Shown here: positions 31,514-49,940 of the stretch, piece by piece
How positions within the stretch are numbered: the first letter of the stretch is position 1
Layout of the letters: the number at the start of each line of letters is the position of its first letter
Source of the DNA: Labyrinthula sp. Ha
Taxonomy: Eukaryota; Sar; Bigyra; Labyrinthulida; Labyrinthulaceae
Length of the DNA stretch: 64,000 nt
Assembly (NCBI GenBank): GCA_015227615.1
Contig: JAALGZ010000011.1
Coordinates: 1,240,001 to 1,304,000, forward strand
Direction of reading: 5' to 3'
Made by a program: the position numbers and the translations under genes
Notes under the pieces: model-generated
Told to the model about the DNA's origin: nothing
Seen by the model: only the letters and a program-made list of their open reading frames with translations
Databases searched by the model: none

Positions 31514-31517
31514 GATC
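31514..31517. repeat. Target-site duplication, left copy (GATC)
   Basis: GATC directly precedes the 5' LTR and again directly follows the 3' LTR at 39466-39469. A 4-bp duplication is consistent with integration of an LTR element. Confidence 0.75.
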
Positions 31518-32281
31518 TGTTGTGGTTTTATGTGAAATATCTTATGGTTTAATGTAGTTGCGATATATGTTTTGTTTCAGCTGTGTCTCAGGTGGTTGAT
31601 TCCAAAAATGCTTGTCTTTGATGTTCTTGATGTTACTAAGAAATAAAGATGTGAAAGAAACTTTGGTAAATGTTGATATACAAGTGAAATTTTGGTATAA
31701 TATGAATTTATGAGATGATACGAAGATATTGTGAAGTTTTTGGTTTATTCTGAAGTGTTTTCGAAGAGTTACAGTTGATTTGGTCAAATCGAGAACCTAA
31801 TTTACAGTCTTTTCTCTTTCGTATTATGTGATAAAATTCGCCCGTGATGAGATGAAAGGGTGGTTTGTTCATTGACGTTTTTCTCCTATGAATTTACATT
31901 TGGTGACATTTGTTGATATAAATTAAAAACGAGATATCGTTAGTTACGATTGAGGGGTGACATGGTCATTTGGGAATTTTGGTATAGGTATTCTGCATAA
32001 TACGGTGTTGGAATTGAGTTGAAATATACAATATTCAGGAAAGTTGAAAGTAGTATTTGACATATATTTTTCCGTTTTTTACTAACTGTTAAGTGATATA
32101 AAAAGAAGAAAAAAAGAGTTTTTTAGTGAATTATAAAAGGAAGTTTATTGAGTTTATATCTAACGCGAAACCCTATTTTATTGGATCTGAGGTCTTTACA
32201 AGGTCCAAGTTGTGTTTGTGATTGGTTTTTTCTTCCGCGGACGTCTTAAGAGTAAATTACAGGAAGACGATAAACGCAATA
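31518..32281 (+). repeat. 5' LTR
   Basis: 764 bp, starting TGTTG and ending CAATA, with these ends forming short imperfect inverted repeats. It is nearly identical to 38702-39465. It should hold the element's promoter and polyadenylation signals. A conserved antisense frame inside it is not considered a gene. Confidence 0.92.
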
Positions 32282-32292
32282 TTGCAATATTG
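32277..32292. other. 16-bp perfect palindrome across the LTR/internal junction
   Basis: CAATATTGCAATATTG is its own reverse complement and spans the last five bases of the 5' LTR and the first eleven internal bases. That is where a minus-strand primer binding site would be expected. I do not recognise a tRNA 3'-end complement here. Confidence 0.7.
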
Positions 32293-32423
32293 TATACTTA
32301 GGGAAGAACCATCATATATTTTTTATTGGGTTTTAAAGAAGGTTTTATTAATAAGCTTACCTGCTATTCAAGATTTACGGCAATTTATTTTTAAGAGAAG
32401 CTACTTTGGAGTGGGAAGTAGAT

Positions 32424-35400
32424 ATGAGTGAAAGAGCTCCTAACATGGCCCAGGTCATGAAAATGTTTGAGGAGATTTTATTGAAGCAACAAGAAGAATC
32501 GCAGAGGAGAATGGAAGCGATGCTAAATAACTTTGCAGGAATGCAACCAGAGATATCTACCTTAGAAAGTTTTACACTCCGTAGCATGGAGAAGTTTATT
32601 TACCAATATGAAAGAATTAACGAAGATCAGCGAAAGTATGTTATGCTGAGGCAGAAATTAGGGAAGCTAGTTTACAAGCAAATGGAATGTTTAGGTTGTT
32701 TGGGTTCTAATGATGAAATAATTAATGCAATCAAGAAGAAGATAGTAAGAGTGAAGGTCGAAGATGCCGGAAGCGCTGAAGGCCTTATTAGGAAACAGGT
32801 CGTTTTTAAGAAGGAGATGGACGAGGAAGAGGCAGTCGAAGTTCTTTTCCAAGAAGTAGAAGAAGTTCTCTCTTTACTACCTCCTGAATCAAGACGGAAG
32901 CCAAGGAAGATCGCTAAGGCTATATTTGATTTGTTACCCAAACACATCTGGGTACGCTATGATGATTTAAATTTGAAACCAGAACTAGAGGAAGCTGATC
33001 GCCAAGAGTTAAAGAAATATATTTTATCGTGCATACCTCCAAGACATGTGAGAAAGGAGTTTAAAGTTTTTTGTGCGGATAAGATTAAATCCACAAAGCA
33101 ACACCCGGTTGCATCGCGGAAGCAGAAGTATGAGATAAAGTCTGCGCAGATGCCGAAAGATCAGGGTCAGTTGCCTAAAGGAAACGAGCTGCTGTGTGAA
33201 CACGACTGGATTTACGGGCACACGCAGAGATTCTGTTATGAAAAGAAGGCAGGAAAGCCTGCACTACCTTATCCTGGTTTAGATGAAATGCAGAGAAGGT
33301 TAGCAAGATATAAAGAAAGGAAGAAGGAGAAGTCGTATGAGATGACCAAGTCTGCGTCGATAAAGAAAGAAGAGGATAAAGTGGAAGATATGGCTAAGGA
33401 GTATTTTGGAAGTAAGATGTTTAGAGCTGTTGGTGGATGTCCAAGTAAGTTTTTTGGTGGAAAGAAGGATACTGAAATAGGAAGTGTGAAACTTAATGAG
33501 GTGAAGAGTGTTATAAATTCATCTAAAGTTCTCCACGACGATGGTTTTTATAAAATAAAAGCGGTGAAGGATAACGCTTTTGTTGATTCATATTTATCTG
33601 GAAAGAAACTTAAATGTTTGTTGGACTCAGGAGCATTTAGAAGTGCACTTAACAGCAAGCATAAGAAGCTATGTGATGGTATTAAGCAGTTGGAAAGGCC
33701 GGTGAGAGTACAGGCCGCGGGGGGTGTTATATACCCCGTACATGAAGTGGGATTTATTGGAAAAATGTGGGTGGAAAGTGATAAACCCGAGTTGGAACCA
33801 CTTGTTTTTGAAGAGGTTGAAGTCCTAATCCTGGAAGTGCCGGAATGGGATGACCTGATAATAGGTAACGACGTGCTGTGTCGTTACGGGTTGGACCCCC
33901 TTAGCGCCATGGAAAGTAAGATGAAGGTTAAGGGGAAGACAAAAACTAGTTTTGCTAAATGGTTTGTTAGCAACGTTGGTGTGGAAGATGAAGCTGCGAG
34001 GGATATTGAGATAAAAGAAATATATCCGAGCAACGAGAAAAACATTCCTCCTCAAGTTTTTGGTTGGGATTGGCCCAACGAGGAGGAGTTTTTAGATATT
34101 GAAAACATTGATTTAGGAGCAGGTGCAGAGGTCACTGATATTGAAAAAGACAATGAAAGAATGAGGAATATTATTCGAGAGAAGTTGGAGAATATACCAG
34201 TGGTCAACTTTGATGATTCTTTAGCGTGGAAACGGAAGTTCACAGGGTTATTTTTGCAACATGCTCAGACCTTTGGGGATTCAAATAGTTATACGAAGCT
34301 GTCGAAGATTACCCCGATAAGATGTGATATAATTGAAGGGGCTCAAGTTGGCGTTCAGAAACAACTACCCCTAGGCCAAGAGCAAGAGGATTTCTTACAC
34401 GCTCGGATCAATCATATGGTTAAAGCTGGTATTATTCAAGTGAATAAAAATCCCACAACAGCAATGAGTGTGCTGGTTGTGCCCAAGAAGGGACCTAAAC
34501 GTTTTAGGTTGGTGGTCGATTTTCGACCTTTAAACAGAGTTACGAAGAAAGTTTCAAATACACTACCAAAAATTGAGCTGCAATTGGATCGCGTGAAAGG
34601 AAATGCGCATTTTTGTGGATTTGACTTACTTTCTGGCTTTGATTATTTAGCTTGCAAAGAGCAAGCTGGTGAGTTTTTCACGTTTACAACCCCATGGGGG
34701 GTATCATATTCTTTCCTAGGGGCACCACAGGGGTGGTGCAATACCCCTAGTTTATTTTCTATGCGCCAAATTGAGGAAGTTTTGATGCCTTCAGGCCTCT
34801 GGCCTAGGAAGGCCATGCAATGGATCGACGACAGTATTATCATGGGGGGTACGATGGAAGAACTCTATGATAATACGTCTAGGTTTTTAACACAAATTCA
34901 GAAGAAGGAATTGCGTTTAAATGTGGAGAAATGTGAGTTGGTAGCAGATAAGTTGACGTTTTGCGGTCGTGAAGTGAATAAGGATGGTTGGAGCTTTGAC
35001 AACAGTTATGCTAAAGGGTTGTTGGAGAGAGTAAAACCTATTTATTTACACGAACTTGCTCAACTTATTTATACCGCGAACTTCATTTCAGCGACTATTC
35101 CGGGGTTCTCAAAAATAAGAAAACTGTTACTTGGGAGTCACAAAATTACAGGTAAAATGAAGAATTTGGAGAGAAGAAGAGTACCCATTGAATGGACTGA
35201 AGAAATGGAGAGGACTTACGAAGAAATGATGCAAGCGTTGAAAGACTCTATGAGTTATTCGCTTGGTTTTTATGATCCAAAAGAAGACGTGTATTTATTC
35301 ACAGATGCAAGTGAAAGATTTTACAGTTTATATATTTCGCAAACTTCTGAGAAGGTTGATAGATTGAATCCATTCCTAAGCAATTTCAGAGTAATTGCTA

Positions 35401-37439
35401 TGAGCTCTGGAAGTTTTGTAGGATCAGCATTGAATTGGCACATTTCGTGCAAAGAATTATTTCCTGTTTTAATGGCAGTCAAGAAGTTTCCGTACTATTT
35501 AAAGTACAATGCTAAAGAGAAAGTGTTATTTACTGACCATAAGAATTTGGTTCAGATATTAAATCCAAGAGAAGCGAAGTTAAAGTCCCATACTTCTAGA
35601 TTAAATCGTTGGGCAATGGAGTTTATGGAATTAAACCTGGTAGCTTGTCATTTAGACGGCTACCAGAATATTCCAGCTGATTGTTTATCGAGGTGGTTGA
35701 ACCCTAAATACCATAAAACTGAAGCTGATTTAGAAGTTATTTGTAAAGCTATTTCTAGAGCTAACAGTCGCGATACAGAGTTAGATTTTTGGAGAGCGGT
35801 TGATATGCTTCATGTCTCACCTAGACATCCAGCAAGTTTGAACCTAGCGGATGTCGGCTGGGAGGTGATTGACGAAGTTTTATTATTTAACCTACAGAAA
35901 AGGGATTTAGGAGAAAGCCTTGAAGAATTGAAGAAAGAAAAGGAAAAAATATTTGTCACAAAGTCTATGATCCCTGTGCTTATTTTACATGCACATATGT
36001 GGTTTAACCATGGATCGAAAGCAAACGAAGTTAAACTGCTGAAGGATAGTTATTATTTTGAAGCAGAAATATGGGCTCTAGTTGTTGAAGCTCATAAGGT
36101 CTTCAGACGACAATGCATGCATTGTCAGAAGCCTAGTTTAGTTGTTCGCCGAACATTTAATATCACCGAATGGGGCAGCCGCTCTGGTGAGGTTTTATTA
36201 GCGGACTTTTTATACATCAACTCAACTGGTTGGATCTTAACACTGGTAGATAGTTTGACTAGGACAACGATATTGAGGTACTGTAAAAAAGCTACAGCCG
36301 ATAACTTGGTCTCCATCCTTTGGGATTGGAATAGTCATTTTCAACTAAGAGATGATTTTATTTTAGTGACCGATAAAGGATCACATTTTACCTCCAACGT
36401 TGTGGAGAAGTTTTTGAGAGAAAGTGGATGTAGCCACAAGTTTACTGCTACATACGTTTCATATACTGCTGGAGCTGTAGAAGTTCAAAATCGGCAGATT
36501 TTAAGACATTTGAGAAGCATAGTAAGCGAGTTCGGTTTAGGCAATAATGGATGGCCGGATGTACTTCCAATGGTCCAGGCCTTCATTAACCAAACTCCGC
36601 TTACTTGTAGAGGTTTACGAATGTCTCCATTGGAGTTAATGATTGGAGTAGAAGGAAAGAATAATAAGTTAGGTAGCGTTTACAAAAACATGGAGAAGAA
36701 GGATTTTCAGAGATTAAAGGAAGCAGCTATTAAGTTGAGAGAAGATCTTCATAAACTTCAGGAAAAGGCTAGTAGTTGTGGTTTAGAATATCGCATGAAA
36801 GCTAACCTCAGAAGAAATGCTAAGTTGACACCCATATTCTTTCGGCCTGGTGAGTTTGTTTGGATGTCGGAGAAGGAAGTAAATTCTGGAAATAAAGACA
36901 AAGTGAAGCCAAGATGGTGTGGTCCCTACCAGATTAGAGAGATGATTAGCGAGCACCTTTACAAGCTGGAAGATTTAAATGGTAATGTCAAGGTTAGACA
37001 TTCCACTTTGTTAATACCGTTTGCGCCAGTTGGGTTTTTACCTAACCCGGCAACTAAGTTAGTTTACCGAATGAACCGTGGTGATTTGGAGGTTGAGAGG
37101 TTTGTAAGATTAATCAAGGATGTTGAAGGAAACCTAAGTTTTGAGGTCAAGTGGCGTGGATTTCCTACAAGTGACAACACGTTTGAACCAGTGACCATTA
37201 TGTTCGAGGATCTTCCTTCACTTGTTAACCAGTTTATTCGTGACAATCCAGGTGTGTTATCGAAAGAGTTGTATCAATATTTGAAAGTAATGTATCCAGA
37301 TGCTTTCGAAGAAGAAGTAAGTGGTAGTTTGAACTCTCTCTATGCTATGAGTGAGAAAGAGGAATCGTCTTATGTTAAGAAATTGATTTATGGGAAGGTT
37401 ATTATAAATGAGTTGGGGCAGTGGAACTATCTTAACTGA
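32424..37439 (+). CDS. LTR retrotransposon gag-pol polyprotein with C-terminal chromodomain
   Basis: One frame of about 1,671 codons from the first ATG after the leader. An N-terminal gag-like region of charged, helical sequence covers about 1-380. The aspartic protease follows (LLDSGA, near residue 400). Reverse transcriptase comes next, with the VVDFRPLN block and the catalytic WIDD near residue 799. RNase H (LFTDAS, TDHKNL) and an integrase with a zinc-binding head and DDE core follow. The chromodomain lies near residues 1557-1610 (FEVKWRGFP...NTFEP). In chromoviruses that module steers integration toward marked chromatin. Gag and pol are in one frame, as in some Ty3-type elements. It is treated as part of the mobile element, not as a host gene. 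Confidence 0.92.
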   Translation: MSERAPNMAQVMKMFEEILLKQQEESQRRMEAMLNNFAGMQPEISTLESFTLRSMEKFIYQYERINEDQRKYVMLRQKLGKLVYKQMECLGCLGSNDEIINAIKKKIVRVKVEDAGSAEGLIRKQVVFKKEMDEEEAVEVLFQEVEEVLSLLPPESRRKPRKIAKAIFDLLPKHIWVRYDDLNLKPELEEADRQELKKYILSCIPPRHVRKEFKVFCADKIKSTKQHPVASRKQKYEIKSAQMPKDQGQLPKGNELLCEHDWIYGHTQRFCYEKKAGKPALPYPGLDEMQRRLARYKERKKEKSYEMTKSASIKKEEDKVEDMAKEYFGSKMFRAVGGCPSKFFGGKKDTEIGSVKLNEVKSVINSSKVLHDDGFYKIKAVKDNAFVDSYLSGKKLKCLLDSGAFRSALNSKHKKLCDGIKQLERPVRVQAAGGVIYPVHEVGFIGKMWVESDKPELEPLVFEEVEVLILEVPEWDDLIIGNDVLCRYGLDPLSAMESKMKVKGKTKTSFAKWFVSNVGVEDEAARDIEIKEIYPSNEKNIPPQVFGWDWPNEEEFLDIENIDLGAGAEVTDIEKDNERMRNIIREKLENIPVVNFDDSLAWKRKFTGLFLQHAQTFGDSNSYTKLSKITPIRCDIIEGAQVGVQKQLPLGQEQEDFLHARINHMVKAGIIQVNKNPTTAMSVLVVPKKGPKRFRLVVDFRPLNRVTKKVSNTLPKIELQLDRVKGNAHFCGFDLLSGFDYLACKEQAGEFFTFTTPWGVSYSFLGAPQGWCNTPSLFSMRQIEEVLMPSGLWPRKAMQWIDDSIIMGGTMEELYDNTSRFLTQIQKKELRLNVEKCELVADKLTFCGREVNKDGWSFDNSYAKGLLERVKPIYLHELAQLIYTANFISATIPGFSKIRKLLLGSHKITGKMKNLERRRVPIEWTEEMERTYEEMMQALKDSMSYSLGFYDPKEDVYLFTDASERFYSLYISQTSEKVDRLNPFLSNFRVIAMSSGSFVGSALNWHISCKELFPVLMAVKKFPYYLKYNAKEKVLFTDHKNLVQILNPREAKLKSHTSRLNRWAMEFMELNLVACHLDGYQNIPADCLSRWLNPKYHKTEADLEVICKAISRANSRDTELDFWRAVDMLHVSPRHPASLNLADVGWEVIDEVLLFNLQKRDLGESLEELKKEKEKIFVTKSMIPVLILHAHMWFNHGSKANEVKLLKDSYYFEAEIWALVVEAHKVFRRQCMHCQKPSLVVRRTFNITEWGSRSGEVLLADFLYINSTGWILTLVDSLTRTTILRYCKKATADNLVSILWDWNSHFQLRDDFILVTDKGSHFTSNVVEKFLRESGCSHKFTATYVSYTAGAVEVQNRQILRHLRSIVSEFGLGNNGWPDVLPMVQAFINQTPLTCRGLRMSPLELMIGVEGKNNKLGSVYKNMEKKDFQRLKEAAIKLREDLHKLQEKASSCGLEYRMKANLRRNAKLTPIFFRPGEFVWMSEKEVNSGNKDKVKPRWCGPYQIREMISEHLYKLEDLNGNVKVRHSTLLIPFAPVGFLPNPATKLVYRMNRGDLEVERFVRLIKDVEGNLSFEVKWRGFPTSDNTFEPVTIMFEDLPSLVNQFIRDNPGVLSKELYQYLKVMYPDAFEEEVSGSLNSLYAMSEKEESSYVKKLIYGKVIINELGQWNYLN

Positions 37440-37460
37440 TCCACCTATGAAGTTGAAGCG

Positions 37461-38678
37461 TTGAGATTTGGTGTTTTGAATCATGGTTTTGGAGATTTTA
37501 TTGCTCTGAAAAAATATGTACCTGGAAAGAATAAGCAACAAGTTTACACGAAGTTGCAGAAACTTGTTGGAAGGCAAAGCCTGAAAGTTTACCATGGGCT
37601 TTATTTAGATGTTGATGTTTTACGAGTTGATAACTTGCGGATGACAGGAGAAGAATATTGTGTAAGAAGAATACCTAGAGATTCAAAGCAAGTTAGGATG
37701 TTTGAGGTTTTGATTAAATGGAAATATGCAGCTCAACATATTAAAAACTTCAAGAAAGCTAAGGAAAAGAAATTGAAAGTGTTTAATTTAACAAATACGG
37801 AGGGAGTTAAGATGATGTTAGAATATGTTAAACAAGAAGATAGTAGTTTGGATGATTGTTTTCCGAAGTTTGTAGGAGGAAAAGAGAGTTTTCTATTATT
37901 TCTGAAACAACTTTGGAGTGATCTAAGAAAGAGAGAAAAAGATATTGAAGGAAAGTTAGAAGAAGTAAAAGAAAGTTTGTGTGAGAATTATATTTTTCCA
38001 ATGAGAAATGCAGAATATGAAGTAAGAAAGTGCGATACACCAAACTTAGTTAAAGTGGATTTTAAGGAATTGAACTGTGTGGCCTATATTTGGAACACAG
38101 AAGGTGTTGGGAGGTTTTACAAAGGTGATGTTAGATGTTTTTTAACTGAAACGCAGAAGAAGTTTGATGTTTTGATTGTAGATCCACCATGGAGAGTGTT
38201 CTCCGGGGATCCTGTTAGAGGACCAGCTGTGTCTTACTCTACTTTATCTGATGATGAGATCTTGAAGTTGAATTTGAAAGCAGTGATGCATAACACCCTC
38301 TGTTGCGTTTGGGTTATTAAAGGAAAGGAAAATATTGTTCAAGAATTATTTCATCGAAACGGAATTCGCATGATGGGACGTTTTATTTGGATAAAAACAA
38401 ATGGACACAATAAAATATTATCCACACTTGGTAACCTTACAATGCGTTGCACGGAGGAGTGCATTTTAGGGGTCAAAGGTGAGCTACCGAAGGTTTTAGT
38501 TACAAGATCATTGGGCAAAGAAATATTATACGGTAAAAGAACTGGTAACGCTCAAAAACCAGTGGAATTATATGAGTTGTTAGAGAACAGTTGTCAGAAG
38601 GAAACTCGTTTTTTGGAACTATTTGGACGGAAAAATAATTTGAGGAAGAATTGGTTCACTGTTGGAAATGAGTTATAG
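37461..38678 (+). CDS. MT-A70-family (METTL3/IME4-like) methyltransferase frame inside the LTR element
   Basis: The second frame of the element, about 405 codons, placed between the chromodomain end and the purine tract. Residues 1-220 are basic and unidentified. The C-terminal ~170 residues are an MT-A70 domain. The catalytic DPPW lies near residue 241 (preceded by FDVLIVD). Then come YSTLSDDEI, a CVWVIKG strand, IWIKTNG, CILGVKGELP, and the late KPVELYELLE...FLELFGRKN with NWFTVGNEL. These blocks match the order in the S-adenosylmethionine-dependent N6-adenine methyltransferase family, which modifies RNA or DNA. There is no obvious initiator at the head of the frame. How it is expressed (read-through or internal initiation, both known in LTR elements) is open, and the start given is only the start of confident coding. 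Confidence 0.85.
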   Translation: MRFGVLNHGFGDFIALKKYVPGKNKQQVYTKLQKLVGRQSLKVYHGLYLDVDVLRVDNLRMTGEEYCVRRIPRDSKQVRMFEVLIKWKYAAQHIKNFKKAKEKKLKVFNLTNTEGVKMMLEYVKQEDSSLDDCFPKFVGGKESFLLFLKQLWSDLRKREKDIEGKLEEVKESLCENYIFPMRNAEYEVRKCDTPNLVKVDFKELNCVAYIWNTEGVGRFYKGDVRCFLTETQKKFDVLIVDPPWRVFSGDPVRGPAVSYSTLSDDEILKLNLKAVMHNTLCCVWVIKGKENIVQELFHRNGIRMMGRFIWIKTNGHNKILSTLGNLTMRCTEECILGVKGELPKVLVTRSLGKEILYGKRTGNAQKPVELYELLENSCQKETRFLELFGRKNNLRKNWFTVGNEL

Positions 38679-38701
38679 TCACCTGATGCTGAAAGGGGCA
38701 G

Positions 38702-39465
38702 TGTTGTGGTTTTATGTGAAATATCTTATGGTTTAATGTAGTTGCGATATATGTTTTGTTTCAGCTGTGTCTCAGGTGGTTGATTCCAAAAATGCTTGTC
38801 TTTGATGTTCTTGATGTTACTAAGAAATAAAGATGTGAAAGAAACTTTGGTAAATGTTGATATACAAGTGAAATTTTGGTATAATATGAATTTATGAGAT
38901 GATACGAAGATATTGTGAAGTTTTTGGTTTATTCTGAAGTGTTTTCGAAGAGTTACAGTTGATTTGGTCAAATCGAGAACCTAATTTACAGTCTTTTCTC
39001 TTTCGTATTATGTGATAAAATTCGCCCGTGATGAGATGAAAGGGTGGTTTGTTCATTGACGTTTTTCTCCTATGAATTTACATTTGGTGACATTTGTTGA
39101 TATAAATTAAAAACGAGATATCGTTAGTTACGATTGAGGGGTGACATGGTCATTTCGGAGTTTTGGTATAGGTATTCTGCATAATACGGTGTTGGAATTG
39201 AGTTGAAATATACAATATTCAGGAAAGTTGAAAGTAGTATTTGACATATATTTTTCCGTTTTTTACTAACTGTTAAGTGATATAAAAAGAAGAAAAAAAG
39301 AGTTTTTTAGTGAATTATAAAAGGAAGTTTATTGAGTTTATATCTAACGCGAAACCCTATTTTATTGGATCTGAGGTCTTTACAAGGTCCAAGTTGTGTT
39401 TGTGATTGGTTTTTTCTTCCGCGGACGTCTTAAGAGTAAATTACAGGAAGACGATAAACGCAATA
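38702..39465 (+). repeat. 3' LTR
   Basis: 764 bp, preceded by the purine-rich tract GAAAGGGGCAG and followed by the GATC target duplication (39466-39469). It differs from the 5' LTR at about two bases by eye. It ends 166 bp before the ATG of the PAT1-like gene, so LTR promoter or polyadenylation activity could reach that gene. Confidence 0.92.
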
Positions 39466-39631
39466 GATCAAAACATCCTTATAGGAGCATATTGCTTTTA
39501 TTGCAATATATAAAAGCTTCCTTCTTGTTTTCTTTAAGAACTTATTGCTTAGACCAAGGAGTTTGCCGATGTATTGGTAGTGCCGGACTAGAGTAATGTA
39601 CCACTGTGTTCCTTCTTCTAAAAGATAAAAC

Positions 39632-40621: not shown

Positions 40622-40970
40622 AACCTGAGTTTTGCATCGTTTGCAGGCTTGAGCAAAAGTTGCTTCTTCTCACGATTCAAAGACATACATCCTACATCTA
40701 CGGGTACCCGAAGTTATTAGTAACCCTGTTTTTCTTGGTTACAATCTACTCCCAAGAGCATTAATATCTGCACAGGTTAATTTTCTTCTAGCTGCCCAAC
40801 TGCTCTGTTTTGTTTTTCATTAACCCTTTTGCTCGTTTGCTTTGCTATTCTAGACTTCTGGTTGCAAAAAAAAATGTTCTACAACCCTGAGAAATTTACC
40901 CCAGCGCATTGAGTTTCCAACAGAAGGTTATTTAAAGCTTTGAAGTCTTTTGTGTCGACGTTGTATTTTC
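40622..40970. other. Short intergenic region before the SANT inverted repeat
   Basis: About 350 bp with no gene or repeat visible. It contains the PAT1-like gene's 3' end signals. Confidence 0.5.
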
Positions 40971-41072
40971 AGTGAGGCCAGCTTCAGACTTTTGTTCTGA
41001 AAAGACTTTTTGAACAAGGTATTAGTGAAGAAAAAGTCATATGTTGGCTTCTTTGGTCGTAAAAAAGACTAA

Positions 41073-41117
41073 AGTGGTATATATATATGTATTCCATATC
41101 TGTGAAAGCATTCACAG
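41073..41117 (+). promoter_or_regulatory. TATA-like tract and perfect hairpin upstream of the left SANT-like gene
   Basis: An alternating TA tract (about 41079-41088) is followed by CTGTGAA-AGCA-TTCACAG (41100-41117), a perfect 7-bp stem with a 4-base loop. Both are kept in the other arm. The position, 165-205 bp before the ATG, fits a core promoter plus a possible protein-binding palindrome. The function is inferred. A 70-codon frame (41087-41299) overlaps the gene's ATG by 17 bases and could act as an upstream frame. Confidence 0.35.
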
Positions 41118-41282
41118 CAATGTGTACAATAATTTTGGCTCTAATTGATTGTGTAGCCTATTCTGTACTATTTAGACACCCCCTAAAAAAGACATGTCCT
41201 TTTTGGATATGTTTCAAAAAGACTTTTTACAATTGGGAAACTGAAAACAAAATAAAATATAAACATAATCAAAGAAAAGAAA

Positions 41283-41735
41283 ATGGCAGCAGTATTTAAA
41301 AGACAAAGAGTTCAAGATAAAGTTAATCAGCAGTTAAAAAGACAAAGACGAGAAATAGCTGTACTTAGAAGAGAAGCACAAACTTCAGTTGACTTTACCA
41401 CTGGAAAAGTGAATCTAGAACTTGCTTTAAGAGAGTTTGAAAGAAATTCTCCTGCAGCACCTGGACAATGGTCAAATATTGAAAGAGTTGTTCTTGTTGG
41501 AAATATATATGATCAATTATTCAATAATCCTGTTTTATGTAAAGAAAGTTGGAATATAATTGTACGAAGGTTTCTTAAGCACTGTGATCAGCTAAAGATA
41601 AAAACTTCAAGGACAAGAACTTCTTCAGCAATACAAAGATATTTCAAAGAACTTAAAAAAGAAAATGTAGCAAAAAATCAAACTCTATTTAGAGCACTTC
41701 ATGTCCAGTGGAAACTTCTCAAAGCACTAAACTAA
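41283..41735 (+). CDS. Small SANT/Myb-like DNA-binding domain protein, copy A
   Basis: A 150-aa intronless protein. A basic, coiled N-terminus (KRQRVQDKVNQQLKRQRRE) is followed, from about residue 58, by a trihelical SANT/Myb-like domain: W-SNIERVVLVGNIYDQLF, ESWNIIVRRFLKHC, RTSSAIQRYFKELKKE. The helix pattern and the Trp at the head of helix 1 suggest DNA or chromatin binding. The same domain occurs in the 49419-49940 protein, so this is a local family. Copy B in the opposite arm differs at two residues (L/I and A/V). The length and domain also resemble the accessory Myb-like protein of PIF/Harbinger transposons, but no transposase is seen beside it. Confidence 0.7.
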   Translation: MAAVFKRQRVQDKVNQQLKRQRREIAVLRREAQTSVDFTTGKVNLELALREFERNSPAAPGQWSNIERVVLVGNIYDQLFNNPVLCKESWNIIVRRFLKHCDQLKIKTSRTRTSSAIQRYFKELKKENVAKNQTLFRALHVQWKLLKALN

Positions 41736-41745
41736 CTACGTAATA

Positions 41746-42102
41746 TTAAAGTTAAAATCTATGTCTCGGGAACTGTTTTTTTCTTTTTTCATTACTTTAA
41801 CCTAGTAAAAATTAATGGCAAGCTTAATTTCTAAGTTTCTGAAGAAAAATGTTTTCTTCCTGAATAACTTTATGCATTTTTTTTGTAAAGGGTCGTCATT
41901 ATAGACGTGGTTTTGCCAGATAATGTACTAGAATGAGGATCTTAGCTAGAGAAGACATAGGATGAGAATATTTTCAACTGCCTTTCAGCAGAATTATTTC
42001 AATGATTTAGAAAATTAACAATAGTTGTTATATCGCTACCAATATTTTGAAAATAAGTGGAAAAAATATAAAAGAAATTATGATATAGTTATTTTCTTAC
42101 AG
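41746..42102. other. Spacer between the arms of the SANT inverted repeat
   Basis: About 357 bp of AT-rich sequence unique to this spot. It holds both genes' 3' ends, facing each other. No gene is visible. Confidence 0.6.
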
Positions 42103-42876
42103 AATACGAAGTTAGTTTAGTGCTTTGAGAAGTTTCCACTGGACATGAAGTGCTCTAAATAGAGTTTGATTTTTTGCTACATTTTCTTTTTTAAGTTCTT
42201 TGAAATATCTTTGTATTGCTGAAGAAGTTCTTGTCCTTGAAGTTTTTATCTTTAGCTGATCACAGTGCTTAAGAAACCTTCGTACAATTATATTCCAACT
42301 TTCTTTACATAAAACAGGATTATTGAATAATTGATCATATATATTTCCAACAAGAACAACTCTTTCAATATTTGACCACTGTCCGGGTACTGCAGGAGAA
42401 TTTCTTTCAAACTCTCTTAAAGCAATTTCTAGATTCACTTTTCCAGTGGTAAAGTCAACTGAAGTTTGTGCTTCTCTTCTAAGTACAGCTATTTCTCGTC
42501 TTTGTCTTTTTAACTGCTGATTAACTTTATCTTGAACTCTTTGTCTTTTAAATACTGCTGCCATTTTCTTTTCTTTGATTATGTTTATATTTTATTTTGT
42601 TTTCAGTTTCCCAATTGTAAAAAGTCTTTTTGAAACATATCCAAAAAGGACATGTCTTTTTTAGGGGGTGTCTAAATAGTACAGAATAGGCTATACAATC
42701 AATTAGAGCCAAAATCATTGTACACATTGCTGTGAATGCTTTCACAGATATGGAATACATATATATATACCACTTTAGTCTTGTTTACGACCAAAGAAGC
42801 CAACATATGACTTTTTCTTCACTAATATCTTGTTCAAAAAGTCTTTTCAAAACAAAAGTCTGAAACTGGCCTCACT
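42103..42876 (-). repeat. Right arm of the SANT inverted repeat
   Basis: The reverse-complement partner of 40971-41745, ending at the complement of AGTGAGGCCAG. It keeps the TATA-like tract and the CTGTGAA...TTCACAG hairpin. Differences from the left arm are scattered single bases, so the duplication is recent or the arms are homogenised by gene conversion. Confidence 0.85.
42112..42564 (-). CDS. Small SANT/Myb-like DNA-binding domain protein, copy B
   Basis: A 150-aa intronless protein, identical to copy A except for two conservative changes (NLEIAL for NLELAL; SPAVPG for SPAAPG). The frame is fully open, so both copies appear usable. The two genes converge tail to tail across a 377-bp gap. 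Read-through in both directions would give complementary transcripts that could form double-stranded RNA. The role is presumed DNA binding, as for copy A. Confidence 0.7.
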   Translation of the reverse strand: MAAVFKRQRVQDKVNQQLKRQRREIAVLRREAQTSVDFTTGKVNLEIALREFERNSPAVPGQWSNIERVVLVGNIYDQLFNNPVLCKESWNIIVRRFLKHCDQLKIKTSRTRTSSAIQRYFKELKKENVAKNQTLFRALHVQWKLLKALN

Positions 42877-45800
42877 AAAACTATAGTTGTTGGACTACCA
42901 GCATAAGAAGTTTAGGTTTGTAAGAGGGTGACCAATAATTTCAGTCTTGGAGTTTTTCTAGGTCTTAACTTTATGCTGATAATTTTAGAAGAAAAAAAAG
43001 GCATAAGGAAAGGTGACTGAACTCAATAAGTACGTGAGATTAAGACAAATGAGTGGCTACATCTCTTGCAGTGTAAAGTCTTGACTCCTCTTAGGTTCTT
43101 CTTGCAGAACAGTAAGAGCTCCTAAAGTAATTCATTCTTTGAAAGTAACGTGAAATTTTACCAAAATATTTTTTGTGCCTCAAGGAGGTAGTATGGAGGG
43201 TGTAATTTTGAGCCTTTCACGATGTTGCAAGACCTTGTAGATCAGGGGAAGCAGGTACTTTGAGGTCGTGACTAGTTGATTCCATTGAGTCTTCAGGTAA
43301 GTATCTTTGAGGACTCCGCATAAATGACGATGAGATTTGCAAAAAAAAAAAAATTTTCTGCCGGTATGTGCATGAAAATTATGTTGTGATGAAGCGGCTT
43401 CAAAAAGTAAGTAAATGAACCTAGTACATTTAATGTTCTCTTCTCTATGTTTGAGATATGCACTAAAGGAACATTTATAGTGCTTAGTAAATGGTAATTA
43501 AGATACGAGAGTAAATTCACATGCTGTTTTGTCTCCATGGAAGATATGGTGCACTCTGTTGGTTTACCTCTTTCCCAATTATGTCCACTAGATTTTCAAA
43601 TTCAAAGTTTGAATCCTTAATCAGTAATTTGCATAAACCAACCCCAGGTTTATGTGATTATTTTCGCCTCGCTACCGTCGCAATCATGCGCAACGTATTC
43701 AGGAGTTTTATAGCTTGTGTATGCTTTTATAAAATAAATCGAACATCCTTTTAATAATTTCACCCGCATGAAAGCCATTCTAATATGGCTGACATTTTCT
43801 TCGTCGAAAAAAATATAGAGGTACTGCATAGAAGCTACGGTAGTACTCACCACAAGGAGTTTTTTTGTCTTCAAGAACTGGGAAAATTATAAAATATTTC
43901 CTTCAGTCATTAGTTGTTGCGATAATACCAGGTTTGCCCACAGGGATGAAAAGTAAAGTGCCATATCATTTTACATAGGTTAATAAATACATCTGAGTAT
44001 AATGAACAAATCTCGAGAATAAAATCTCATTGACTACATGCTTGAGTGTAAGATGCTTAAACTTACAGGAGCAGTAAGTGAATCATCTGTGGTAAAGCTG
44101 GTAATTGCTGAACATCTACTTTGAAGCGGTGATGTGGGCTTTTTTTTCATAGTATGCTAAAACAAGATTCATTCCTTCAACTTCAAAAATTGGTGGTGGA
44201 GCAACGAACTTTTGATATATATATTTGTATATCTCGCAGCATACCTAAACCCCACTCAAAATGCTTAATATATACAACAGTAAACTTAACCTAGTACCTT
44301 TAACCTGTTGGAATAAGGTTAACATACCATTGACCCGACCCACTCAGAGTCTAATTTAAGGCTTATGTAGATATTTTGTCCTATACCTGGTTCTTAACCT
44401 ATATTATACCGCAACATGGGCACTCAGAAAATATTGAAAACCCGTTCATTGGATAAACTCGGCGTTCTTGTCCAGAGGCATTCAAAATCGGCTTTCTTGG
44501 CATTCTTTAATGCGATCCTTTGTAACATGTACCACCACAGGGTCAGAAGACATTTCCCCTTTTCTCTATGGTTAGACAGAAAATGGTTTCGAGTAGAACT
44601 TTGCCTCAACCTTAAGCTGGAAACAGCTAGATTCATATGGGAAAGTTTTCTTGTCTATGGATACTGTCACCAATTAAGTGCCAGTAATAAAGTTCTGAAA
44701 ATAAATTGAAGAATGTGAACAAAATAATATTGGTAAATAAGCGAGCAAAATAGATGCCCAAGATGAACGAGAATGTATGAATTGACGGCTGGTGCTCTAT
44801 TCAACCTCAAATAAATATGTTTACCGTGACTTTAGCTCATACAAACATACTCTCAATACCAACTGCATACCAGCACTCTTTAGTCGCCTCTGCGATAAAT
44901 AAACATATCTTGTTCATAGAGTATGGCTGAACATGAGTTATATGAACAGATTTACTTAACTGAAAACAACAAAAACTTGTCTAATCACCAAATTGAAAAG
45001 TGTGCGACTAACTGAACAGAAATTTAAGAGTGCAATGTATGGATACTTTGATGACCATGTTAACTTTAATGAAGAACTGTCGGGTATTCTGAAAAGTAGT
45101 TGGCAAGAGAGAATAACCATATGGAAGCATTTAAAGTATATAGTTTCAGGGAAAATGTGCGAACTCGAATGATACATAAGACCCAACCCAGTTCCAAGAA
45201 AGACTACGGTTCCATTGGTTATATTAAGCCATTGCATAAGTCATATTGTACTGAAACTGCATCTGACGCTGGTGATATTCTACTATTAGAGCCATTATTC
45301 TGTGACAAAGTAGAATATTCGTTTAGAGATGAATATATCGAGCTCTAACCTAGAATATATGCCGACATCTGGTCGGAGAGCCTATTCACCCATGTCCCGA
45401 CCAAAATTTTTCTCTAGTAGCTTACCTGAAGAAAGATTCAATCCTCGTTCCTTTCCCACAGATATCCATGCGAAAATCCTGTTAATCTTAACACACTTAA
45501 AAACTAACAATTCACTCAAAAACGCCCAGTTGATGAACGAAGAAGAGCTAGGAACGCGCTTAGTTATATGTAACCAATGAACATAAGTAGCCAACCGTGC
45601 AAGGAAACGCAGGCACTGAATGCCCGTTATTTACAACATACCTTCAACTAAAGTCGATAGCGATCATAGTTGAAGTGGTTTGACACTTGCAATTAGTTAA
45701 GATCTATACCTCCAGTCAGGCCCTCTATGAAAACGAAAGGGAAATTGATATTCTTAACCCAATCTAGCCTTTAAATCCCAATTCAACTGTACTATATCAG

Positions 45801-49418: not shown

Positions 49419-49940
49419 ATGCAATATGAAAAGTATGTGGAAAGTCTAAACTTGGCTAAGCCTATATTTGAAGTGGAAATGGAAATAGTGCCAAAAGAGG
49501 AAATAGAACTTGAGTTTCAAGACAGTGGTTTTTTTGAGGGGTTGACGGGAAGTTTACGTAGCATGGAAATCGCAAAAACAGAAGTTGAAGAGGAGCCGGA
49601 GGAGTGGGAAGTTGAAAAGCCAGTGAAAACAGGTTTGTTTTCCATGGGAAAGCGTAAGAGAAGGAACTCTAAATTTTGGAGTGAGACTGAACGAGTCGTT
49701 TTGGTGGGAACGGTGTACGATGAGTTATTTAAGTATCCAGTATTAAACCAAAACTCTTGGGAAAAGATAACACCGAAATTTCAAGATCACTGCGATGTAC
49801 TTGGAGTTGAGAGAAACACACAAAGAACCCAATCAGCACTGAAAAGATATTTCAAAGTTATAAAGCAGGAAAATTTGAACCAAAACGGGACGATTTTCGG
49901 TAAATTGTACGACAAGTGGAAAAAATTAAGAACAAAATAA
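49419..49940 (+). CDS. SANT/Myb-like domain protein, diverged relative of the inverted-repeat pair
   Basis: A 173-aa intronless protein with an acidic N-terminal half (many EE/VE runs to about residue 75) and a basic patch (GKRKRRNS). The SANT-like domain follows (about 85-170): FWSETERVVLVGTVYDELF, NSWEKITPKFQDHC, RTQSALKRYFKVIKQE. It aligns along its length with the 41283 and 42112 proteins. The shared pattern is ERVVLVG-YD-LF--PVL---W--I---F--HCD, then R--SA--RYFK--K-EN----T-F. The N-terminus is unrelated: acidic here, basic there. It may be a chromatin or transcription factor. The next gene starts 110 bp downstream on the same strand. Confidence 0.7.
   Translation: MQYEKYVESLNLAKPIFEVEMEIVPKEEIELEFQDSGFFEGLTGSLRSMEIAKTEVEEEPEEWEVEKPVKTGLFSMGKRKRRNSKFWSETERVVLVGTVYDELFKYPVLNQNSWEKITPKFQDHCDVLGVERNTQRTQSALKRYFKVIKQENLNQNGTIFGKLYDKWKKLRTK

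Follow-up and report, generated by a model that had tools for sequence, protein, structure and literature searches.

An LTR retrotransposon with a methyltransferase domain of its own raises the questions of which enzyme this is, how it is joined to the element, and what it may do there. The element lies in the window, by which we mean the whole 64-kb stretch of DNA analysed here. An earlier note on this DNA had described an LTR element of gypsy type, with a chromodomain and an MT-A70 gene, and this description is borne out by the Pfam domains, the LTRs and a GATC target-site duplication.

Element layout and the end of the polyprotein

The element occupies positions 31518-39465 and looks like a complete Ty3/gypsy-type LTR element, with an MT-A70 domain ahead of its 3' LTR. 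Its two 764-bp LTRs (31518-32281 and 38702-39465; these and all features between them are on the plus strand) are identical at 762 of 764 positions, and 4-bp copies of GATC at 31514-31517 and 39466-39469 form the target-site duplication. A polypurine-rich tract, read from the sequence, precedes the 3' LTR at 38691-38701. The gag-pol ORF comprises 1677 codons (32406-37439) and ends at an in-frame TGA. Within it, reverse transcriptase (RT; 34479-34970; PF00078, E 1.1e-17), RNase H (35274-35630; PF17917, E 3.7e-15), the integrase core (rve; 36180-36455; PF00665, E 9.3e-9) and a chromodomain (37089-37238; PF00385, E 2.3e-6) all score above the Pfam cut-offs; an aspartic protease-like stretch (33591-33881; PF13975, E 0.003) is weak and falls under its cut-off. 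The order RT-RNase H-integrase along this ORF, with the integrase last, is that of the Ty3/gypsy type. The chromodomain, for which a search of solved structures returned HP1/CBX-type chains, sits at the integrase C-terminus, a feature of the chromovirus clade; chromodomain gypsy elements have been described outside the chromoviruses as well (PMC12477816). An SHMT gene on the same strand ends about 200 bp upstream of the element. Contamination or an assembly artefact was ruled out by the flanking host genes on a 1.35-Mb contig, the target duplication, and the presence of relatives on many contigs.

The methyltransferase domain lies in a 405-codon frame at 37461-38678. Residues 235-404 (38163-38672) match MT-A70 with E 9e-29 and 101 bits against a Pfam cut-off of 23.9, confirming the domain assignment made earlier, and the DPPW catalytic motif occupies residues 241-244 (38181-38192). 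The TTG at 37461 is merely the first start that the ORF program allows. The frame continues the reading phase of the gag-pol ORF beyond a single TGA (37437-37439), and a Myb-like domain recognized by profile A4 (described below) starts upstream of this TGA, which falls inside that domain. We read the joint in 18 copies (the window, L009-L014, L016-L024, L026 and L028). The 50 codons before the frame are free of stops in 16 of them; the window copy has one stop and L011 has four. The window copy is thus broken at this point, and open copies exist. Furthermore, 31 of the 150 MT-A70 matches scored in the Pfam search of the genome lie, by hand count, in open frames of at least 1700 codons with no stop within the match. 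What had been taken for a separate 405-codon frame encodes the C-terminal part of the gag-pol polyprotein, which is interrupted in the window copy. A separately captured gene with its own start was ruled out by the shared phase and by the open joint in 16 of 18 copies.

Type of the enzyme and its p1-like neighbour

We built a profile, A1, from 13 element frames and compared it with known methyltransferases. Positions 199-405 of A1, corresponding to window positions 38055-38675, match MTA1 with E 3.4e-61 (210 bits), ahead of METTL3 (1.3e-37, 133 bits), METTL14 (1e-21, 81 bits), METTL4-like proteins (6.3e-14, 55 bits) and MTA9 (2.6e-5). The nearest solved relatives by profile score are therefore the ciliate MTA1 proteins, 77 bits over METTL3, and the window frame used as a single sequence likewise scored higher against MTA1 (124 bits) than against METTL3 (77 bits). 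The comparison of catalytic-domain folds does not separate the two, METTL3 being tied with MTA1. In the second AlphaFold model pLDDT was 82.5, with residues 1-14 below 50. The Pfam scans found no zinc finger, where METTL3/IME4 enzymes would have CCCH zinc fingers, and in the two frames of the window element they found MT-A70 and no cytosine methylase. With MTA1 this far ahead in profile score (3.4e-61 against 1.3e-37), a METTL3 type was rejected, and the earlier classification as METTL3/IME4-type was not upheld. Of the families compared, MTA1/AMT1, which writes 6mA in eukaryotic DNA, is the nearest to the element enzyme by profile.

The catalytic motif is well kept. In an alignment of 13 rows, some of them near-copies, the D and the first P of DPPW are present in 13/13, and the second P and the W in 12/13 each. 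We matched the contact residues of MTA1, taken from PMC9852454, to positions in the elements: the counterparts of R357 (13/13), N360 (12/13) and E371 (10/13) are largely kept, followed by D182 (8/13), S332 (6/13) and N370 (5/13). Departures from DPPW are DPPY in L028, DPAW in L036, DPHW in L022, and GPPW in L021 and P0003. DPAW and DPPY perhaps mark whole families with altered or no activity. The modules with an altered motif (L021, L022, L028, L036 and P0003) are otherwise well kept.

A tree of 31 methyltransferase domains, drawn with few references and less than the full set of six MT-A70 families, placed 15 of the 17 element rows in a group with the ciliate MTA1 proteins and L117, a standalone frame from the same genome. 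The fork joining the elements, MTA1 and L117 is labelled 87/79 and is not starred, and the element branch is labelled 91/90. L036 and P0012 fall outside this group, and the METTL3-like and bacterial rows stand apart. The element label requires two changes on the tree, so the tree does not by itself give one origin.

The N-terminal half of the frame gives a different match. A1 positions 1-195 match p1 positions 33-240 (E 5.6e-15), and profile A4, made from the N-terminal part of 11 sequences, matches p1 23-219 over its positions 18-201, with E 8e-19 to 9.6e-19 for three p1 sequences; the best Myb protein other than p1 reaches E 2.6e-4. A fold search with this part placed two p1 chains on top (E 6e-4 and 2.9e-3), though with rmsd of 11.6 and 13.5. 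The p1-like region, at approximately 37431-38045 by profiles A4 and A1, combines a Myb-like fold with the QSL..GL..D extension found in p1. In another family, L036, p1 (E 3.2e-16) and MTA1 (E 8e-38) matches occur within a single frame, and across the genome 131 p1-like matches were found among the best 150 of 245 candidates. These profile matches identify the N-terminal half of the frame as p1-like, p1 being the DNA-binding subunit of the 6mA writer complex. The earlier description of the frame thus stands for its MT-A70 half and had missed the p1-like half. Neither an MTA9 nor a p2 part was recognized in the element chain.

In L036 (179-1903), P0011 and P0012, a stretch resembling a retroviral-type aspartic protease, below the Pfam cut-offs, lies between the p1 and methyltransferase parts, which might mean a relocated protease or a module that can be released by cleavage.

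Distribution, selection and co-inheritance

The frame is not confined to the window copy, and its presence in other copies of the family, raised as a question by the earlier note, is clear: a search of its own genome gave 119 matches at E <= 1e-3, more than expected by chance. All of the best 150 of 354 candidates passed the Pfam MT-A70 cut-off (150/150), most of them near an RT, and merging the methyltransferase lists gave at least 186 loci. The 150 RT matches listed correspond to 148 loci, of which 127 are followed on the same strand, within 7 kb, by a methyltransferase (122/148 before two further methyltransferase searches). At control positions, with the first methyltransferase list, a methyltransferase was found upstream of 6/148 RT loci and on the other strand at 1/148. 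The remaining 21 of the 148 listed RT loci have no downstream methyltransferase, and for 4 of the 21 the contig starts no more than 4.5 kb away on the methyltransferase side. Conversely, 63 of the 186 methyltransferase loci have no RT among the RT matches listed. L118, from a family without detected RT, has MT-A70, with a p1-like stretch seen by eye only.

We read 27 loci in full, picked for having a methyltransferase match. RT is present in 27/27 and a chromodomain in 26/27, with RT identity to the window ranging from 29 to 100%. LTR identity is at least 98.5% in 16 of 24 listed pairs (L025, a nested repeat, was left out), and by visual reading 11 of the 24 other LTR pairs have a 4-bp duplication exactly at the reported ends. 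The window element is a copy of a large, diverse gypsy-type chromodomain group with a p1 and AMT1 module ending its polyprotein. The 1756-codon element frames of L030 and L031, on contigs C2 and C37 (the latter 16.9 kb long), are identical and share their 3' flank; this duplicate is perhaps the other haplotype.

Between two subfamilies, represented by the window and L014, dN/dS was 0.06 for the methyltransferase and 0.11 for the p1 part, compared with 0.03 for RT, 0.03 for RNase H and 0.05 for integrase; synonymous sites are saturated in more distant pairs. Ratios near 1, each on a handful of changes, were obtained for the p1 part in window-L012 (0.93) and L019-L020 (0.72) and for the methyltransferase in L032-L033 (0.74). 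Among 9 elements, methyltransferase distances correlate with those of integrase (r = 0.97) and RNase H (0.98), with 0 of 2000 permutations as high. The corresponding values for the p1 part in 7 elements are 0.94 and 0.92, with 1 and 2 of 2000 permutations as high. Methyltransferase and p1 distances track those of integrase and RNase H, showing that the module travelled with pol. The module is under purifying selection, conserved across subfamilies and co-inherited with pol. The earlier proposal that the gene is kept by selection holds on these grounds; the near-identical LTRs to which it had appealed only date the insertion.

The same genome contains relatives outside the elements. L117 (994-1974) is a standalone AMT1-like frame (MTA1 E 3.7e-73, METTL3 E 8.9e-36), so a 6mA writer of the host itself probably exists. 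A p1-like match at G000:C1:1284458-1284859, in a 384-codon frame with no methyltransferase nearby among the loci listed, is a possible host p1.

In the protein database, the window frame found 8 relatives and the profile 38, the profile search having scored only the 7996 candidates with the most common words. Locus G000:C117 of the window's genome has a 100% identical counterpart in the EukProt protein P0002, which indicates that EukProt includes this organism, or a very close one, in a further assembly or annotation. Region 1215-1756 of the 1756-aa element frame returned one protein, also from EukProt and identical over that region. The search for the same layout elsewhere, proposed earlier, yielded one metagenome protein, P0012 (832 aa, on a 3990-base contig), with an integrase C-terminal domain, a chromodomain below cut-off, Myb and MT-A70; by these domain matches it has the layout of the window element in a different source. 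Other relatives were viewed by their domain lists. On viral contigs, the best 80 of 280 relatives of A1 each match only from residue 204 on, and the best of them, L037, looks from its ORFs like a phage. A scan for the p1 part gave 25 pattern-matching stretches with no relative among them. A match was found in 51 phage records, in none of them over 80% of the query, and the 10 records listed match from residue 222 on.

Possible roles of the module

Of the four subunits known for the 6mA writer complex of eukaryotic DNA, two are united in the element chain. Robust 6mA is found in species with AMT1, where it lies at ApT on the downstream side of transcription starts, and AMT1 is the only family with which p1 and p2 co-occur (PMC12695648). 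A group of elements carrying an AMT1 relative with its p1 partner suggests that elements can mark DNA with a signal of active genes. The explanation we favour, at roughly even chances, is that the polyprotein with its p1 and AMT1 module marks the element's own DNA with 6mA. The writer would reach the element's double-stranded cDNA or a new insertion as part of the polyprotein or of a fragment set free from the polyprotein, and p1 and the chromodomain would hold it there on DNA and chromatin. The module, paired with itself or assisted by host AMT6/7 and p2, would then put 6mA on ApT sites, and host AMT1 could keep up the symmetric ApT mark. Since 6mA at ApT is linked to transcription and can be maintained by host AMT1, a new copy would from the outset resemble an active gene in its 5' region and be less easily silenced. 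More tentatively, and short of even chances, an LTR lineage may have taken over AMT1 with its p1 reader arm and may use it to place on its own DNA a permissive mark maintained by the host, mimicking active-gene chromatin. We count against the marking explanation that no MTA9 or p2 part was recognized in the chain and that the element has no ApT signature, counts of ApT, TpA and VATB having given no signal.

The same module might serve targeting, with the p1-methyltransferase part on the integrase chain binding 6mA-rich linker DNA of the host or hemimethylated ApT and steering insertion beside active genes. Targeting domains of other elements sit behind the integrase or chromodomain, and here the module is fused in frame behind both, in a copy located about 200 bp downstream of the SHMT gene. 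However, one gene-adjacent insertion is no statistic, and DPPW and the SAM-contact residues are largely retained, beyond what DNA binding alone would need; we consider targeting rather unlikely. The retained catalytic residues in most aligned elements also speak against a competitive role, in which the module would titrate host AMT6/7 and p2 and so weaken host 6mA, although the altered DPPW of several families would fit a dominant-negative role there. To our knowledge no 6mA-sensitive nuclease is known in such hosts, which counts against the related idea that 6mA shields the cDNA from a host nuclease. Proposed functions of retrotransposon methylases include cDNA protection (PMC5890265) and antiviral defence (PMC6338049), and we regard protection or competition as quite unlikely here.

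A METTL3-type enzyme acting on element RNA through m6A would share the MT-A70 fold, and the tie between the METTL3 and MTA1 catalytic domains in the fold comparison is compatible with it. Yet MTA1 leads METTL3 in both profile and single-sequence searches, METTL3 offers no counterpart for the p1 part and the Pfam scans found no zinc finger, which together make RNA methylation very unlikely. Host sequence is known to be trapped in chimaeric elements, and the 21 of 148 listed RT loci without a detected downstream methyltransferase, 4 of them near a contig start, could be taken to mean that the module is a roleless passenger picked up once by recombination. The between-subfamily dN/dS of 0.06 (methyltransferase) and 0.11 (p1 part), and retention of the module where RT identity to the window is only 29-42%, leave that reading with a negligible probability.

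Methylase-bearing retrotransposons are known. SymbioLINE-Dnmt, SymbioDIRS-Dnmt3 and KnitGypsy-Dnmt3, one of them gypsy-type, are retrotransposons with a captured DNA methyltransferase and, like the present group, have many copies and purifying selection on the enzyme; they carry cytosine (5mC) methyltransferases, whereas the window element has an adenine enzyme of the MT-A70/AMT1 class, fused behind integrase and chromodomain and joined to a p1-like subunit (PMC5890265). DIRS elements do combine a retroelement with an N6-adenine methylase, but theirs is a bacterial-like Dam-type enzyme accompanied by a tyrosine recombinase, in place of the MT-A70/AMT1 type, direct LTRs and rve integrase found here (PMC5890265, PMC6338049). 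The ciliate MTA1c complex (MTA1-MTA9-p1-p2; 7f4l, 7yi8, 9u9e) shares the catalytic domain class and the p1-type DNA-binding subunit; it is a host complex of four separate proteins, whereas the element has p1 and MTA1 parts in one chain ending a polyprotein (PMC9852454). Algal Sola transposons join a ParB-like domain to an N4C/N6A methylase (PMC12477816), and the bdelloid N4CMT-chromodomain protein joins a DNA amino-methylase to a chromatin-binding domain (PMC8885841). Both resemble the element in linking an amino-methylase to a DNA- or chromatin-binding domain, but Sola is a DNA transposon and N4CMT a host gene, and both methylases are bacterial-type, outside any LTR polyprotein. In the open-licence papers of PubMed Central we found no report of an LTR polyprotein that includes p1 and an enzyme of the AMT1 type. 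What appears new is a captured adenine writer with its DNA-binding subunit in one chain.

According to a 2025 survey covering 231 eukaryotic genomes and transcriptomes, the MT-A70 families stayed relatively static after early duplications (PMC12695648). The 150 of 150 candidates over the cut-off (the best 150 of 354), most of them near an RT, are a strong exception to this view, and mimicry by elements through 6mA, if true, would also contradict it. The mark of the adenine writer captured here goes with transcription, and a permissive 6mA would, if true, have the opposite sign to the repressive 5mC of DNMT-bearing elements. A natural single-chain p1-MTA1 is useful for learning which subunits the writer requires. 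Open, altered (DPAW, DPPY, GPPW) and missing modules coexist in this genome, which offers a direct test of whether 6mA alone keeps insertions active.

Two minor features concern the element and its surroundings. The TGG start expected at the tRNA primer site is absent in the window element, L030 and L032, and a tRNA scan of the 64-kb window found none. Short palindromes (TTGCAATATTG, TTGTTTAAACAA, TTGAAGCTTCAA) take the primer-site position, at 32282-32300 in the window and within the end of the 5' LTR in L030 and L032; it could be asked whether these elements prime themselves or dimerize there. Near the element, an 802-bp inverted repeat (40964-41765 and 42082-42883) has arms 97% complementary and 316 nt apart. 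Each arm holds a 150-aa ORF, and the ORF at 49419-49940 encodes a relative with 49% identity over 86 residues; these ORFs form a lineage-specific small family adjoining the element.
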